Source of the DNA: Haloarcula marismortui ATCC 43049
GTDB taxonomy: Archaea > Halobacteriota > Halobacteria > Halobacteriales > Haloarculaceae
Assembly (NCBI RefSeq): GCF_000011085.1
Contig: NC_006396.1
Coordinates: 310,001 to 374,000, forward strand
Direction: 5' to 3'
DNA: 64,000 nucleotides
A program made the position numbers and the translations under genes. This document shows, piece by piece, positions 3,316-51,850 of the stretch. The notes below the pieces were generated by a model, which searched no databases, was not told where the DNA came from, and saw only the letters and a list, made by a program, of their open reading frames with translations. Positions within the stretch are counted from its first letter, which is position 1, and each line of letters opens with the position of its first letter.

Positions 3316-5385
3316 TCAGTCATCGACTGCGGCTTGTTCGGGCTGTCCGGTTTCGGATCCGGAGTCGTATTTCACCTCTATGTACAGCAATGCGACGATG
3401 GTGAGTGTTGCGAGAGTTTGCACGGCAACGGTCATCGGCGCCAGTGGAGCGAACACCGCTGCTCCCGCAGCTACCAGTAACCCGGCGCGGCTCGGCAGCC
3501 TGAGTTGGCCTGAGAAATAGTTGACAATGGCGGTCACGGTGGCGACGAGACCGGTGCCCACGACGACGAACGTAATCGGTGTCGCCGGAACCGACCAGAA
3601 CAACAGACTATCGTTGACGACGAAGATGTACGGGAGAACAAACAGCGGCGCCCCGAGCACGAGCGACTTTCCGGCGGTCCGCCAGAAGTTCCCGCCTGCG
3701 ACCCGTGCCGTGACGAGGCAGGCGATGGCAACCGGCGGCGTCAGCGCCGAGAGAATTGCGAAGTAGAACACAAAGAAATGGGCAGCGAGCAGGTCGATGC
3801 CAGCCTCGGTCAGTGCTGGTGCGATCAGCAGCACGGCCGTGATGTAGGCCGCGACGGTCGGCATCCCGAGACCAAAGAGAAGCGCGGCGACCATCGCGAA
3901 CATGAGCAACAGCGCGAGCACGCCACCCGAGAGTTCAACGAGGCTGGAAGCGAACACCTGCGTGAACCCGGTGAGGTTCAACACACCGACAAAGATGTTC
4001 ATCACGCCCAGCGACACCGCGATCGGGGCTGCGTTCTCCATCCCGCGGCCCAGGCCATCCAGAGTGTCCACGAGAAAATCGCGGATCCCGTAGCCATCGC
4101 GGAAAAAGATCCCCTGAACGAACGCAGCCGGGAACGCGGACATGATCGAGAGGAAGCCTGCGTACAACGGGTCGTACAGAAGGATGACCAGTGCGTACAG
4201 GAGCACGGCCAGCGGGACCCACAGCGCGAGTCCCTCGACGATCAGGTTACGAACCGATATCTGCCCGAACGAAACAGCGGTTGTCGTCCGACCGAAGATC
4301 GCATTTAGTGCGTTTTTCCGATCCTTGTCGACCGTTTCGACGTCGGTCAGTTCGTCCTCATCAATCTCGCTTGTGAGCCCTTCCTTGATCGTCGTCATGT
4401 GGACACCGATTGCGACCGTCCCGTAGAAGAGGAGTGCCGGCAGAAATCCGACAACGATAATCCGCAGGTAGCTCGTCCCAGTTATTTCGGCCATTATGAA
4501 TGCCGCCGCACCCATGATTGGTGGCATAATCTGGCCGCCGCTGGAAGCCACCGCCTCGTAGGCCGCTGCGGTATCTCTGTCGAGCCCGTGACGCTTGAGT
4601 AACGGAATGGTAAACGCGCCCGTCGTCGCCGCATTGGCGGCCGCACTGCCATTAACCGACCCCATGCCCATGCTTGCGACCGTTGTCATCTGCGCTAACC
4701 CGGACCGGACCTGCTTGCCGATCAGCGTTCCAACCTGGACAAAATACTCCAGCGCACCGTACGCTTCCAGCAGTCCCGCAAGGATCATGAAAATAATAAT
4801 GAATGTCCCCGAAACCTCGACAATGACGCCGAAAACGCCGCTACCGAACTCAACCGTCAGGCCCTGCACGAGCCGTTCGGCCTGAACCCCGTTGTGGTTC
4901 AAAATCCCCGGGAAGTACGGGCCATACAGCGCATACGCAAGGCCAACTACCCCGACCAGCGACAGCATTGGACCGTAAACCCGCCGGCAAACATCCAACA
5001 ACAGCAGGATGAGCAACAGCCCCATGAATAAGTCGAGGTCGGTGTATATCCCGAGTTGCTCGTAGACGATGCGGTTGAAGGCGATAAAGAGGTAGCCGGC
5101 GACGACGGCCGAGAGAGCGGCCTCAAGTAGTGTCGCGTAGTTTCCGAATCGCTCCCGACGTGTCTTGGGTTCGGGTTCAAATGCGAGGACAGCCGCTCCG
5201 ACAAGCATGAAGCCGAGGTGGGCGATTTTGTGCTGGTCCTGTTCGAACGGAAACAGCTGGGTAAACCAGAGGTGATAGGCCGTCGAGGCGATTCCCAAGG
5301 CTATCAGGAACCCGTACTTGCCCATGCGTACCCGGTCGGGACCGACCCAGCCCCCGGGTGGGTTTTCCCCCGTCATGGCTGGCAT
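3316..5385 (-). CDS. TRAP transporter fused permease (DctQM-like, TAXI type)
   Basis: A 689-residue protein with many membrane spans, matching fused TRAP permeases in which the small DctQ-like subunit precedes the large DctM-like subunit. The DctM part is recognisable from the Gly/Ala-rich stretch MGMGSVNGSAAANAATTGAF and later GLGMPTVAAYI. TRAP systems import organic acids or amino acids using an ion gradient; in haloarchaea Na+ coupling is likely. The gene follows the TAXI binding protein by 36 bp in the same direction, so the two form one operon. Substrate cannot be read from sequence. Met4 is an alternative start. Confidence 0.92.
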   Translation of the reverse strand: MPAMTGENPPGGWVGPDRVRMGKYGFLIALGIASTAYHLWFTQLFPFEQDQHKIAHLGFMLVGAAVLAFEPEPKTRRERFGNYATLLEAALSAVVAGYLFIAFNRIVYEQLGIYTDLDLFMGLLLILLLLDVCRRVYGPMLSLVGVVGLAYALYGPYFPGILNHNGVQAERLVQGLTVEFGSGVFGVIVEVSGTFIIIFMILAGLLEAYGALEYFVQVGTLIGKQVRSGLAQMTTVASMGMGSVNGSAAANAATTGAFTIPLLKRHGLDRDTAAAYEAVASSGGQIMPPIMGAAAFIMAEITGTSYLRIIVVGFLPALLFYGTVAIGVHMTTIKEGLTSEIDEDELTDVETVDKDRKNALNAIFGRTTTAVSFGQISVRNLIVEGLALWVPLAVLLYALVILLYDPLYAGFLSIMSAFPAAFVQGIFFRDGYGIRDFLVDTLDGLGRGMENAAPIAVSLGVMNIFVGVLNLTGFTQVFASSLVELSGGVLALLLMFAMVAALLFGLGMPTVAAYITAVLLIAPALTEAGIDLLAAHFFVFYFAILSALTPPVAIACLVTARVAGGNFWRTAGKSLVLGAPLFVLPYIFVVNDSLLFWSVPATPITFVVVGTGLVATVTAIVNYFSGQLRLPSRAGLLVAAGAAVFAPLAPMTVAVQTLATLTIVALLYIEVKYDSGSETGQPEQAAVDD

Positions 5386-46423: not shown

Positions 46424-47470
46424 ATGAGTCAAGAGCGGACTGACGGCGACCTCCGGAACACTGGACTGTCGCTCAAGCACGACCGCGAGTGGGATTACGA
46501 ACTCGACCGAATCGTCGAGGCCGTCGAGGAACGCGACGCAGAGAAAGTGGGACTGCAGTTCCCCGAGGGGCTGAAGCGCCGTGGCCCGGCCGTGGCCGAT
46601 GATCTCCGCGAGGAACTGCCTGACGACGTGACGGTGTTGCTCTCGGGCCAGCCCTGCTACGGTGCCTGTGACCTCGATACGTACATGATGCGCCGGACGG
46701 ACGTGTTCGTCCACTTCGGCCACTCGCCGATGAAAGAATCGGACAAGATCATCTACGTCCCGCTGTTCTCCAACGTCGACGTCTTCCCCATCATGGAGCA
46801 GGCCCGCGAGGAACAGCTCGCCGACCCCGAAGACGACCCTGATGTGGGGCTCGTGACAACGGCCCAGCACATGAACAAGTTCGACGAAATGCGCGAGTGG
46901 CTGGAAGAGCGTGGCTACACGGTCCACACGCGGCGCGGCGACGAGCGACTGACCCACGAAGGACAGGTGCTCGGCTGTAACTACGCCAGTGCCGACGTTG
47001 ACGCCGACCAGATGCTGTATGTCGGTGGCGGGAAGTTCCACCCGCTTGGGCTGGCGATGGAGCACCCGGAGAAACACGTCGTCATCGCCGACCCCGTCAA
47101 CAACGTCGTCACCGTCGCCGACACGGAGAAGTTCATGAAACAGCGCTACGGCGCGGTCCACCGCGCGATGGACGCCGAGTCATGGGGCGTCATCTTCTGC
47201 ACCAAGATCGGCCAGGGTCGCTGGGATCAGGCCGAGGAAATCGTCGAAAACAACGAAAACGCCTACCTCATCACCATGGACGAGGTGACACCGGACCGGC
47301 TGACGAACTTCGGGATGGACGCATACGTTAACACCGGCTGTCCCCGAATCACCACCGACGACGGCCCACAGTTCAAGAAGCCGATGCTCACGCCCGGCGA
47401 GTACGAAATCGCTATCGGCGAGAAACCACTGGACTCCCTGGAGTTCGACACCTTCCACGGCACCTGGTGA
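46424..47470 (+). CDS. dph2: Diphthamide biosynthesis enzyme Dph2
   Basis: A 348-residue radical enzyme that transfers the 3-amino-3-carboxypropyl group of SAM to a histidine of elongation factor 2. The three cysteines that bind the 4Fe-4S cluster are visible: SGQPCYGAC near 77, LGCNYAS near 185 and NTGCPRI near 306. VGLQFPEGLKRR near 40 is the family N-terminal signature. Archaea use a homodimer of this single protein. Only 3 bp separate it from the next gene, a pseudo-archaemetzincin, suggesting cotranscription. Confidence 0.95.
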   Translation: MSQERTDGDLRNTGLSLKHDREWDYELDRIVEAVEERDAEKVGLQFPEGLKRRGPAVADDLREELPDDVTVLLSGQPCYGACDLDTYMMRRTDVFVHFGHSPMKESDKIIYVPLFSNVDVFPIMEQAREEQLADPEDDPDVGLVTTAQHMNKFDEMREWLEERGYTVHTRRGDERLTHEGQVLGCNYASADVDADQMLYVGGGKFHPLGLAMEHPEKHVVIADPVNNVVTVADTEKFMKQRYGAVHRAMDAESWGVIFCTKIGQGRWDQAEEIVENNENAYLITMDEVTPDRLTNFGMDAYVNTGCPRITTDDGPQFKKPMLTPGEYEIAIGEKPLDSLEFDTFHGTW

Positions 47471-47473
47471 TCC

Positions 47474-48355
47474 ATGGGCCGGAGGGTCGAAAACGAACAG
47501 CTTACAATCGCTGCCGTCGGCGCAATAGAGCGAGAGACGCTTGAACTCGCCGTAGATGCCGTCGATGAACACATCCCGCTGACGCCACGCGTTGATCATA
47601 GGCAGTTTCACACCGACGGAATCCCCGATAGCGCCCAGTCTACCGATGACAGTGATCAGTACGACGCGGTTGAGCTGGCGAAATACGTAGCCAGTGAGAC
47701 GGATGGCGGCCGAACGCTTGTTGTGACGAATCAAGATGTCTCACAAGGCCGGCGGCAGTCGCTGTTCGGAATTGGAATCCGATACGGCCGGGCATCGTTA
47801 CTCTCGACGTTCCGTCTGGGTGAGAACAAGTTCGACGACCGGGTTCGAAAACTGGCTGTCAGTGAGGTCGGGTACATGCTGGGGCTTGAGCTCTGTCCAA
47901 ACGAGCAGTGCCCGTACAGGAGAGCAGACTCAGTTGCGACGCTGGATGCGGTCGACGAGTCTCCCTGTGAGGCCTGCCAGACGAAACTTGCCGAGGCCAT
48001 CACATCTGGCGATGCGACAACGGACTCCGAGTCGGCAGAGAATAGACCCACGGAGAAATCGGTGAGCCAATCAGATAACGGACCACAAGATAGTTCGACG
48101 GATGAATTGACACACCTCCTCGCTGGCACTGCTCGCTTCTGGGTGTCAGTACTCGGCTACGGGGTCGCATTCATCGTGACGCTGCTTGTTCTGATTGGTC
48201 TGCTCGAAGAAGTCGTCGGACTCGCCATCACGGATTCAGATGCAGCTACCTGGGTCATTGTCGTCATCACTGCTGCTGTTGCATGGGTCGTCTACAGGAA
48301 CTGTCGAGCGGTTATCAAGGGACTCAGCCGTATAGTTGTCGAGAGCATCCGGTAA
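47474..48355 (+). CDS. Inactive archaemetzincin-like protein fused to a membrane hairpin
   Basis: A 293-residue protein. Residues 9-175 match archaemetzincin, including ASLLSTFRLGEN and a helix aligned with H-E-x-x-H-x-x-G-x-x-H-C. Here it reads SEVGYMLGLELC at 130-141: all three zinc His are replaced (Ser130, Tyr134, Leu140) while Glu131, Gly137 and Cys141 remain. The structural zinc Cys set is kept (Cys141, Cys146, Cys165, Cys168). A Ser/Asp-rich linker (175-215) leads to two membrane spans at about 221-243 and 255-275. It should fold but not cleave. Gene order after dph2 with a 3-bp gap suggests a shared transcript. Confidence 0.8.
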   Translation: MGRRVENEQLTIAAVGAIERETLELAVDAVDEHIPLTPRVDHRQFHTDGIPDSAQSTDDSDQYDAVELAKYVASETDGGRTLVVTNQDVSQGRRQSLFGIGIRYGRASLLSTFRLGENKFDDRVRKLAVSEVGYMLGLELCPNEQCPYRRADSVATLDAVDESPCEACQTKLAEAITSGDATTDSESAENRPTEKSVSQSDNGPQDSSTDELTHLLAGTARFWVSVLGYGVAFIVTLLVLIGLLEEVVGLAITDSDAATWVIVVITAAVAWVVYRNCRAVIKGLSRIVVESIR

Positions 48356-48356
48356 T

Positions 48357-49118
48357 CTACGCGCCGAGAAATATCTGTGCGATACCTGTCAGCCAGAGAA
48401 ACACAGCCAGCGAAATGACTGCAACGGCGATGCCGAGCAGCCCGTTTTTCGCAAGCACGAACCGTCGCTCCCGGAGCAGTTCGTCCGGATCTTGGTCGGA
48501 GAGGAAAAACAACCCATCGCGGCCAGTTAATACGAGCGGTTTCGATTGCTCCCCGGACAACGAGTTGTCCAGTTCAGCCGTCCCGTACGCATACACGGTA
48601 TCGCCGGGTTCGATGTAGGCCATCTCATAACGTCGGTCGTCACCGGCCCGCAGGTCCGGGATTTGCCAGTCGCGCTCAAAGCGCGCCAACTTGTCGTCAG
48701 GCGAGGTGTGGCTCTTGCGCTTCTCGTTCCAGCGACGGTCCTCGGAAACATGGAAGTCGAACTCCGCGTTGCAAACCCGGACTGAGCCCTCATCAGTTAC
48801 AATGTCGAACGGCACCGCTTCCGATTTGTTGACGTGTGTCCTGCTCGAATCACTTCCCGCGTCCTCAATTGTGAGTTCGTAGGCAACACATGCCTCACAG
48901 TCGTACAGTGTTCCGATATGTCGACCAGCAGGTTCGATGCGACCCCGGACTGCTGTCGGACCAGCAGCAATTGAATCGAGTTCCGAAAGCGGTGTCGTTC
49001 GAATTGCGTGCTCTTCCTCATAGCGGTCAAATCCCATCAGTATTGATCCGATTCCCCAGAGAACACCAAACCCCGAGAGCGCCAGAATACCGAGATACAA
49101 CAGAATGCCAAACAGCAT
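48357..49118 (-). CDS. GIDE-domain membrane protein (MULAN-like)
   Basis: A 253-residue protein with one span at each end (about 2-28 and 225-250) and a GIDE-type domain between. Characteristic segments are VRGRIEPAGR near 57, ACVAYELTIED near 77, and EMAYIEPGDTVYAYG near 170. In mitochondria this domain precedes a RING finger in the ligase MULAN; no RING is present here. It starts one base before the LemA stop, and GIDE and LemA genes often pair in prokaryotes. Function of the pair is not established. Confidence 0.8.
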   Translation of the reverse strand: MLFGILLYLGILALSGFGVLWGIGSILMGFDRYEEEHAIRTTPLSELDSIAAGPTAVRGRIEPAGRHIGTLYDCEACVAYELTIEDAGSDSSRTHVNKSEAVPFDIVTDEGSVRVCNAEFDFHVSEDRRWNEKRKSHTSPDDKLARFERDWQIPDLRAGDDRRYEMAYIEPGDTVYAYGTAELDNSLSGEQSKPLVLTGRDGLFFLSDQDPDELLRERRFVLAKNGLLGIAVAVISLAVFLWLTGIAQIFLGA

Positions 49119-49699
49119 CAGTTTTGAAGACGGTCACGTACGGAGAATTCCCCTTTTGCAGCCTCGTCAGCCTCAAACGAGTCACGAGGCTTGTATCCTC
49201 TATGGGCCGCGAGATACCGCTCTGGGATCTGTTGTAACAGCGCGTTGTACCGTCTCACAGTGTCGTTGTAATACTCCCGACGGTTTTCCAATCGCTGCTC
49301 GATGGTTTCGAGAGCATCGCGAACGTCATCGAATTTCTCGTCGGTCCGCAGTTCTGGCGTCTCCTCGGCAATCGAGTAGAACTCGCGGACGGATTCTCGG
49401 ATGTCAACTTGGGCCATCGCTGCCTCCGCAGGAGTGCTTGCATCAATCGCGCTCTCGCGAGCCTCAACCATGCCAGCGAGAACGTTCTGCTCCATGGACA
49501 TATATTCGTCAGCGATTTCGATGAGGTTTCCGACCTGGTCGTGACGGCGCTGAAGTAGCACTTCGACGTTCCCCCAGGCAGCGTCACAACTCTCGCGGGC
49601 CTCGACAAGATTGTCGTGTGCCCGTCGAAAGTACGAACCGATCAACCAGACAGTGAGGAGGACACAGAACCCCCCAACAATGTATCCATATAGCGTCAT
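49118..49699 (-). CDS. LemA family protein
   Basis: A 193-residue protein: an N-terminal span (residues 3-21), then a cytoplasmic or extracytoplasmic helical bundle. NLVEARESCDAAWGNVEVLLQRRHDQVGNL is the classic LemA start region, and NRREYYNDTVRRYN near 150 the C-terminal family motif. Role unknown across the family. Its stop overlaps the GIDE gene start, so the two are cotranslated. Confidence 0.92.
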   Translation of the reverse strand: MTLYGYIVGGFCVLLTVWLIGSYFRRAHDNLVEARESCDAAWGNVEVLLQRRHDQVGNLIEIADEYMSMEQNVLAGMVEARESAIDASTPAEAAMAQVDIRESVREFYSIAEETPELRTDEKFDDVRDALETIEQRLENRREYYNDTVRRYNALLQQIPERYLAAHRGYKPRDSFEADEAAKGEFSVRDRLQN

Positions 49700-49864
49700 A
49701 TTCTTTCAGGTCATCTGCCACCAACATATAATTTTACCCATCTATTCGAAGACAGAAATAGCACGGTGAACCGAAATAAAGTGTACCTTGACTGGAATAC
49801 AACTCCCAATCTTGGTGGACTCTACCTCGGCCCGCGTATCTATCAAATCAGTGTGGATAAGAAT

Positions 49865-49874
49865 CATATATGAT
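49865..49874 (+). promoter_or_regulatory. TATA region of the sensor-kinase cluster
   Basis: CATATATGAT lies 45-54 nt before the ATG at 49919, so the transcript would have a leader of about 25 nt. Confidence 0.5.
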
Positions 49875-49918: not shown

Positions 49919-51850
49919 ATGGCTTCTACGGAGGACACTGCTCTCTTCCGCGACGTTTTCCAGGCGAATCCGGACCCGATTATGATCCACGACGCTGACA
50001 CCGGGATAGTCGTCAGGGCTAACGAGGCAGCGGGCGCGTTGCTCGGGCGTCCCCCGGCGGATATCGTCGGGATGCACGTCGGCGAGTTTAGCCCGCCGGG
50101 GTTCTCGACAGCAGACGCAAACGCCCTGATTACGGAGGCAGCCACATCGGGGTCGGCACAGGTCGAGTGGACGACACGGGGCCCGGACGGCGAGAGCCGG
50201 CGGGTCGAAGTGTCGCTCGAACGCGCCGTCATCGGCGACACAACCCGCGTTGTGGCGTTCATTCACGACGTGACCGAGATCCGCCAACAGGAGCGCAAAC
50301 ACACTGAACGGAGCAAGCAACTCCAGACGCTGATGGAGAACCTCCCGGTCGTCGTGTTCACGCTTGACCCCGATGGCGTCTTTACGTACTCGGCCGGAAA
50401 GGGGCTGGACGGACTCGGGATAGAACCCGGCGAACTCGAAGGGATACCGGTGTATGAGGTCTATAAACAGTATCCGGAAATCATCGAGGCTGTTGAACAA
50501 GCTCTCGATGGCGAAGAGGTTCGCGTGACACAGGAGGTCAATGACCTCGTCTTCGAGACGTGGTATCGGCCGGTGTTCGACAATGACGGCGATCTAACGC
50601 AGGTGGTCAGCGTCGCCCGCGACATCACTGACCTCAAACGGCGCGAAGCACGCATCGAAACACTCAGCGAGGCGACGAACGAACTGCTGTACACCCGCAC
50701 GGAGCGCGCGGTCGCGGACACGGTGACACAGATCGCACAGCACATCATCGACCAGCCACTGGCGGCGATGTGGTCCTACAACAGCGACGACGATACCCTC
50801 TATCCGATTGGTGCAACAAGCGAGGCGGCAGACTTCGCGGCGGTGGAGACGGCGTCTGACCTCTCACCGATGGGTCCCGAAAGCGACGAAAACCGCCTGT
50901 TTCACGATGGCAGTCCGACCGTCGTCGAGGACTATCAGGCGCTGTCGAACCCATCAGCGCCCCAGGCACCGCTACGGACGGTGTTGTTTCTCCCGCTTGA
51001 GGACTATGGAATGTTGTGTATCGGTTCGCCAACTGTCGAGTCCTTCGACAGCCACGAGCGGTTCCTGCTCGAAATTCTCGCGAGCACCGGGGCCGCCGCA
51101 CTGAACCGGGTCGAACGCGAGACGCGGCTCAAGTCCAAACAGGCGGAACTGGAGCGCTCAAACGAGGCGCTCCAGCAGTTTGCTTACATCGCGTCGCATG
51201 ACCTGCAGGAACCCCTCCGGATGGTGTCGAGCTATGTCGACCTGCTGGACAGCGAATACGGTGACGACCTCGACGACGAGGCCGCCGAGTACATGGCCTT
51301 CGCTGTCGACGGGGCCCGCCGAATGCAGGAGATGGTCAATGCTTTGCTCCGGTACTCGCGGGTCGAGACAAACTCGGGTGACTTCGAGGAGACAGACCCG
51401 GAGGCGGTTCTCGACCGCACGCTGGACGCCCTGCGGATGCGAATAGAGGAGGTTGACGCGACCATCACAGCGGAGTCACTGCCACCCGTCGAAGCCGACC
51501 CCAATCAGGTCGGTCAGGTGTTTCAGAATCTGCTGGACAACGCCATTGAGTACGCCGTGGAAGCCGGCATCGAACCACGTATCGAGGTCAGCGCGGACAG
51601 AGATGACGACGATGTTGTGTTCACCGTCTCGGACAACGGGCCGGGGATTCCGGCGGCGGACCACGAGGAGGTGTTCGACATTTTCCATCGCGCTGGAGCA
51701 CACGACACGGACGGAACCGGCATCGGACTGGCCGTCTGCCAGCGAATCGTCCTGCGCCACGACGGGCGTATCTGGGTCGAACCGTCGGACAACGGCGCGA
51801 TGTTCAAGTTTACGTTGCCCGCGGTGACGGAGGTGAGCGGCGATGACTGA
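49919..51850 (+). CDS. PAS-PAS-GAF sensor histidine kinase
   Basis: A 643-residue soluble kinase. PAS domains lie at about 8-120 and 130-240, a GAF domain at about 255-395, a phytochrome-type dimerisation helix with phospho-His in [11 protein letters not shown] near 427, and the ATPase domain with [10 protein letters not shown] (N box), DNGPGIP (G1) and [10 protein letters not shown] (G2). No membrane spans, so the signal is intracellular. Its stop overlaps the next gene, a single-domain receiver, by eight bases, which makes that receiver its likely partner. No chromophore Cys is evident in the GAF domain. Confidence 0.93.

Follow-up and report, generated by a model that had tools for sequence, protein, structure and literature searches.

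A degenerate archaemetzincin with a predicted membrane hairpin

The window (the whole stretch of DNA analysed, 64,000 nucleotides of Haloarcula marismortui ATCC 43049) holds three adjoining genes next to dph2. The first, on the plus strand at 47474..48355, has its ATG 3 bp past the dph2 stop codon (47468-47470) and encodes a protein of 293 residues, AMZ-TM, which the NCBIfam model NF033823 and Foldseek identify as an archaemetzincin, membrane-anchored and, judging by its residues, catalytically dead. The two others, both on the minus strand, encode a BAM/GIDE-like protein of 253 residues (48357..49118; PF12483, E 9.3e-4) and a LemA protein of 193 residues (49118..49699; PF04011, E 7e-36). In a profile search NF033823 covers residues 11-172 of AMZ-TM (E 2.9e-19), while Pfam M54 scores 24.1 bits, slightly short of its cut-off of 24.4, so that routine annotation could overlook the protein. 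A normal archaemetzincin, AmzA, is encoded elsewhere in the same genome, and identity between AMZ-TM and haloarchaeal AmzA proteins is 28-34%.

Alignment to AmzA locates the degenerate active-site helix SEVGYMLGLELC (canonical HEVGHTLGLEHC) at 47861..47896 on the plus strand. AMZ-TM reads RKLAVSEVGYMLGLELCPNEQC here, where the normal AmzA encoded by this genome has RKEVVHEVGHTLGLEHCDNKRC, and the catalytic zinc pattern HEXXHXXGXXH is replaced by SEVGYMLGLEL. Serine, tyrosine and leucine thus stand in for the three zinc histidines of HEVGHTLGLEHC (H>S, H>Y, H>L), which bears out the claim in the preliminary description that all three catalytic zinc ligands are lost. The methionine of the Met-turn (CXM) is a tyrosine (CPY). 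The same alignment places the structural zinc site, Cys141, Cys146, Cys165 and Cys168 (CX4C-X18-CX2C), at 47894..47977 on the plus strand; its spacing, previously called nearly canonical, is in fact exactly so, being identical to that of AmzA from the same genome.

The AlphaFold model of AMZ-TM (mean pLDDT 81.6, built from 46 sequences) has the metzincin fold. Comparison with archaemetzincin structures had been proposed as the check on the assignment, and Foldseek recovers solved archaemetzincins as the top PDB matches (2x7m, E 3.8e-11; also 3zvs and 4axq), with TM scores by target of 0.82-0.87, 3zvs and 4axq giving 0.87; no mismatch was seen. A linker follows the domain (about residues 173-206; 47990..48091, plus strand), which evolves fast (pN/pS ~1) and is modeled with pLDDT below 50 at residues 183-206. 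In the C-terminal part, two long helices (residues 207-248 and 256-292; 48092..48349, plus strand) form a predicted membrane hairpin. The addition of such a two-span hairpin had been claimed, and hydropathy, with peaks at 227-245 and 256-274 (in ORF numbering, which runs one residue ahead of the protein), agrees on it with the model. By sequence and predicted fold AMZ-TM is an archaemetzincin-family protein, yet its catalytic residues do not qualify it as an M54 peptidase, and peptidase activity is expected to be absent. With the catalytic site lost and the structural zinc motif kept, the non-catalytic role suggested earlier stands as the likely reading.

The adjoining BAM/GIDE-like and LemA genes

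The GIDE-like gene is convergent with that for AMZ-TM, with 1 bp between them. PF12483 gives its product 19.1 bits, compared with a cut-off of 23.6, and matches 6 of 16 GIDE-like homologues (best E 4e-6); the assignment to GIDE is weak for the window protein, though backed by these family members. Its model (pLDDT 79) shows one long helix at each end (residues 2-41 and 211-244) and a beta-rich domain between them, so that the predicted architecture is the domain between two membrane helices that characterizes BAM/GIDE. The protein is without a RING domain, and a PDB fold search with the model gave no match. The LemA assignment is strong, with 123.7 bits for PF04011 compared with a cut-off of 26.2, and the protein matches the LemA structure 2etd in phmmer (E 8e-21); no second LemA was found in the window's genome. 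The stop codon of lemA overlaps the start of the GIDE-like gene by one base (window 49116-49120), which suggests translational coupling. From hydropathy and flanking charges (the positive-inside rule), all three proteins would face the cytoplasm, AMZ-TM with its archaemetzincin domain, the GIDE-like protein with its GIDE-like domain and LemA with its rod.

GIDE-like genes also occur in other settings. In a genome of the same genus (G010, locus L177, 3946-9838), five of them are arrayed around a single lemA with no dead archaemetzincin, and the pairing of LemA with GIDE-like proteins is therefore wider than the three-gene module. At locus L164 (G159, 4251-4988), a GIDE-like gene of intermediate similarity (E 7e-19) is adjoined by neither LemA nor a dead archaemetzincin.

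A family of dead archaemetzincins in Halobacteriales

Nearly every one of 392 sampled Halobacteriales genomes has an M54 gene. Profile searches combined with a neighborhood check found membrane-anchored M54 paralogues in at least 19 of these genomes, from several families; this count, like the 18 linked loci described below, is a lower bound, as genomes were sampled and the top few candidates in each were scored, so that an unlinked member may be missed. For G223, the GIDE-like gene served to confirm the member. Each of the 19 proteins matches NF033823 individually, and in none is HExxHxxGxxH intact. Three further Haloarcula genomes, H. sebkhae and H. japonica among them, encode a protein that is 89-90% identical to AMZ-TM with the same motif, and 15 more have other dead versions. 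Orthologues with an intact histidine triad had been named as the sign of a mere local mutation; the survey found none, and the same substitutions recur in the three other Haloarcula. Across the 19 members the catalytic motif is lost in differing ways (SE..Y..L, KQ..H..N, KQ..R, SV..T and others). The last three structural cysteines (C-X18-C-X2-C) are invariant, as is Gly249 between the hairpin helices. The first structural ligand is a cysteine in six members, apparently a histidine (an HX2C pattern) in eight, and unclear in five. The structural zinc site thus looks to be kept throughout the family, and the catalytic site gone.

Hydrolytic or metal-binding activity might persist at a rebuilt site, as the glutamate of HExxH is retained in AMZ-TM and a single histidine is left in G318, G119 and G195. 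A set of three ligands is present in no member, however, and the methionine of the Met-turn is gone from most of them; to judge from these residues, we consider a rebuilt site very improbable.

In a phylum-wide sample of 295 genomes only two reached E 1e-40, both already-known members and both Halobacteriales, and no relative of AMZ-TM was seen among plasmid records. In the best tree of M54 domains the membrane family is split around canonical AmzA, with a single clade not rejected (AU p 0.144). The KQ pair at the positions of the first histidine and the glutamate, common to G318, G119, G195, G247 and G293, and the congruent trees of the partner proteins favor the view that these dead membrane proteins arose once. 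Dead archaemetzincin paralogues without the membrane hairpin were also observed, HAVGGMFGLDRC at L073 (G299), HLVATMYLVDHC at L075 (G059) and KLMGQMLGVADC at L076 (G171), all with the four structural cysteines present. Catalysis seems to have been lost repeatedly in haloarchaeal archaemetzincins.

Linkage of the three genes

The dead archaemetzincin directly adjoins GIDE-like and lemA genes in 18 of the 19 genomes. It is convergent with the lemA-GIDE pair in most loci, and all three genes are codirectional in G119 and G195; these two gene arrangements are spread over about seven genomic contexts, grouped by common neighbors. Beyond loci so grouped, no further gene family is recurrent near the module. 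A reverse search of the 392 genomes returned, as the 18 best GIDE-like matches (E <1e-35; the next at 7e-19), the same 18 loci, and co-occurrence of the GIDE-like and dead archaemetzincin loci has a hypergeometric probability of 4e-30. The trees of the three proteins also agree, their distance matrices giving Mantel r values of 0.85-0.93 (p 2e-4). The one exception is G317, where the dead archaemetzincin is without both partners; either the partners are therefore dispensable or this locus is decaying. An oxidoreductase neighbor of the G317 locus is common to three module-bearing genomes.

A mobile cassette at the dph2 locus

The gene dph2 (46424..47470, plus strand; TIGR03682, E 8e-104) neighbors the insertion site and lies outside the module. 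The whole inserted cassette of 2.4 kb (47471..49870) is absent in close relatives between dph2 and the kinase gene at window position 49919, and in six close Haloarcula relatives that gap is tens of bases only. The limits of the cassette coincide exactly with the three genes, and its GC content of 0.52-0.58 compares with ~0.62 around it. Between the H. marismortui type and other cassette-bearing genomes, synonymous divergence is ~0.12 for AMZ-TM and the GIDE-like gene and 0.09-0.18 for lemA; in the same comparison it is ~0.40 for dph2, and DNA identity is higher within the cassette than in its flanks. The lower divergence and the peak of identity inside the cassette argue that it is younger in these species than dph2 beside it and was probably spread laterally, and recently. 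Its ends show no long repeat and no transposase-like signature. At most empty sites (L213-L218) a short terminator-like palindrome (GTTCTCA...TGAGAAC) follows dph2, and it is missing where the cassette sits; this palindrome 3' of dph2 may mark the insertion point.

These data bear on a tie between AMZ-TM and dph2, with a role in diphthamide synthesis or the control of EF-2. The preliminary description raised it from the 3-bp spacing, which is real, and in four Haloarcula co-transcription of the two genes is possible. Among the 18 regions of 16 kb examined, though, dph2 is present in those four alone and in none of the other 14; AMZ-TM is located elsewhere in other genomes, relatives carry dph2 without it, and the divergence of the cassette is far below that of dph2. 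The link to translation factors is not supported, and we give it next to no credence: the proximity of dph2 is accidental, and the gene keeps company instead with the two that follow it, those for the GIDE-like protein and LemA, which had been overlooked as its conserved partners.

Selection on the module

Purifying selection acts on lemA and on the GIDE-like gene (dN/dS ~0.13). AMZ-TM evolves faster than its partners in Haloarcula, with dN/dS of ~0.45 and a value near 1 in the linker, and in H. japonica (G028, locus L117, position 8349) a TAG codon falls four codons short of the usual end. The ratio and the early stop in this one copy allow for relaxed constraint in Haloarcula. They would also suit a copy of AmzA in decay, on its way to becoming a pseudogene, that acquired the membrane hairpin by fusion and serves no function, as would the scatter of the lost catalytic residues, which differ between members. 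The remaining evidence makes this improbable. The 19 reading frames are otherwise open across several families, with C-X18-C-X2-C, the structural glycines and the hairpin conserved, which is unexpected of a pseudogene when members have only ~15-27% identity to the window protein. Outside the linker pN/pS is below 1 in all comparisons but one, and both the linkage and the congruence of the partner trees speak against loss of function.

Discussion

AMZ-TM is probably the pseudo-protease subunit of a membrane module whose members, a dead archaemetzincin, a BAM/GIDE-like protein and LemA, are inherited together and pass between haloarchaea as one unit. On balance we also incline to see in it a laterally mobile three-protein haloarchaeal membrane machine, in which the dead archaemetzincin captures its target instead of cutting it, together with a LemA scaffold and the BAM/GIDE protein. 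The three proteins would assemble into one complex on the cytoplasmic side of the cell membrane, where LemA would serve as a helical scaffold and the GIDE-like protein would contribute a second binding domain anchored in the membrane. A metzincin holds an extended peptide in its cleft. Without its zinc site the cleft may still do so, and an adaptor, sensor or decoy is therefore its simplest use; the empty substrate cleft of AMZ-TM would then bind a peptide or a partner without cutting. The best reading of the dead archaemetzincin is that of a cytoplasm-facing adaptor or regulator. More speculatively, the job of the module could be membrane or protein quality control, or a response to stress or viruses, with the dead domain capturing or sensing a target. 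The patchy, mobile distribution is compatible both with quality control or a stress response and with virus defense.

Should the module serve in anti-virus defense or another kind of conflict, the domain of the dead protease would act as a fast-evolving sensor or bait. Its patchy presence in ~5% of genomes, the insertion of a cassette of low GC content, and the fast evolution of the dead protease beside conserved partners would all suit such a role. Against it, the PADLOC families give nothing credible (best E 0.0035, with partial, chance-like matches), no extra gene recurs among the module neighbors, and a scan of viral contigs with one family member as query found no relative. The distribution also looks partly vertical, with shared neighbors within one family. 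We therefore hold a dedicated defense role to be unlikely, and prefer the general reading of a membrane module that captures its target.

In the open-access literature we found no description of the three-gene module, and nothing relevant joining LemA with GIDE, ubiquitin ligase or haloarchaea. The biology of archaemetzincins has been called barely known (PMC3427221), the conserved function of the BAM/GIDE domain open (PMC4457424, a paper in which LemA is unmentioned), and MamQ has been described as the sole LemA protein with a known process to its name (PMC4902198). If our reading is true, the module is a natural system for reading the unknown roles of three protein families together: a compact cassette with one member of each, small, deletable and transferable as a test unit, and with the protease dead by sequence in every copy. 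AMZ-TM would also be a clear example of how a metzincin can become a non-enzyme bound to the membrane.

Comparison with known systems delimits what is particular to this module. AMZ-TM resembles AmzA (MEROPS M54; NF033823; PDB 2x7m, 3zvs and 4axq) in fold, in the Cys4 zinc motif and its spacing, and in the surrounding sequence, and differs from it in the loss of the three catalytic zinc ligands and the methionine of the Met-turn, in the added hairpin, and in its LemA and GIDE-like neighbors. BAM/GIDE proteins (MAPL/MUL1) have a domain between two membrane spans, and the RING is missing from prokaryotic members (PMC4457424); eukaryotic members have an added RING ligase domain, and the match of the window protein to the family is weak. 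CarG of Myxococcus xanthus is an inactive archaemetzincin of 170 residues that is kept as a binding partner of CarD and acts with this transcription regulator, with no membrane part described (PMC3427221, PMC4374960). AMZ-TM shares with CarG an archaemetzincin domain, inactive in CarG and predicted to be so in AMZ-TM, whereas CarG is soluble and AMZ-TM is membrane-anchored. AMZ-TM falls short of the CarG type as defined by NF033824 ('Myxo_non_zincin'), the NCBI profile for a non-proteolytic protein resembling archaemetzincins, which scores 34.1 bits on it compared with a cut-off of 250. The magnetosome gene island encodes both MamQ, of the LemA family, and MamO, a membrane-integral pseudo-protease, and magnetosome formation, a membrane-based process, requires both proteins (PMC4902198, PMC4794232); MamO activates another protease and binds metal (PMC4794232). 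MamO has a serine-protease fold, no GIDE-like protein is described there, and the system is unrelated, but the likeness to our module is a LemA protein beside a membrane pseudo-protease. By analogy, CarG and the MamQ/MamO pair are precedents for a non-cutting role of AMZ-TM.
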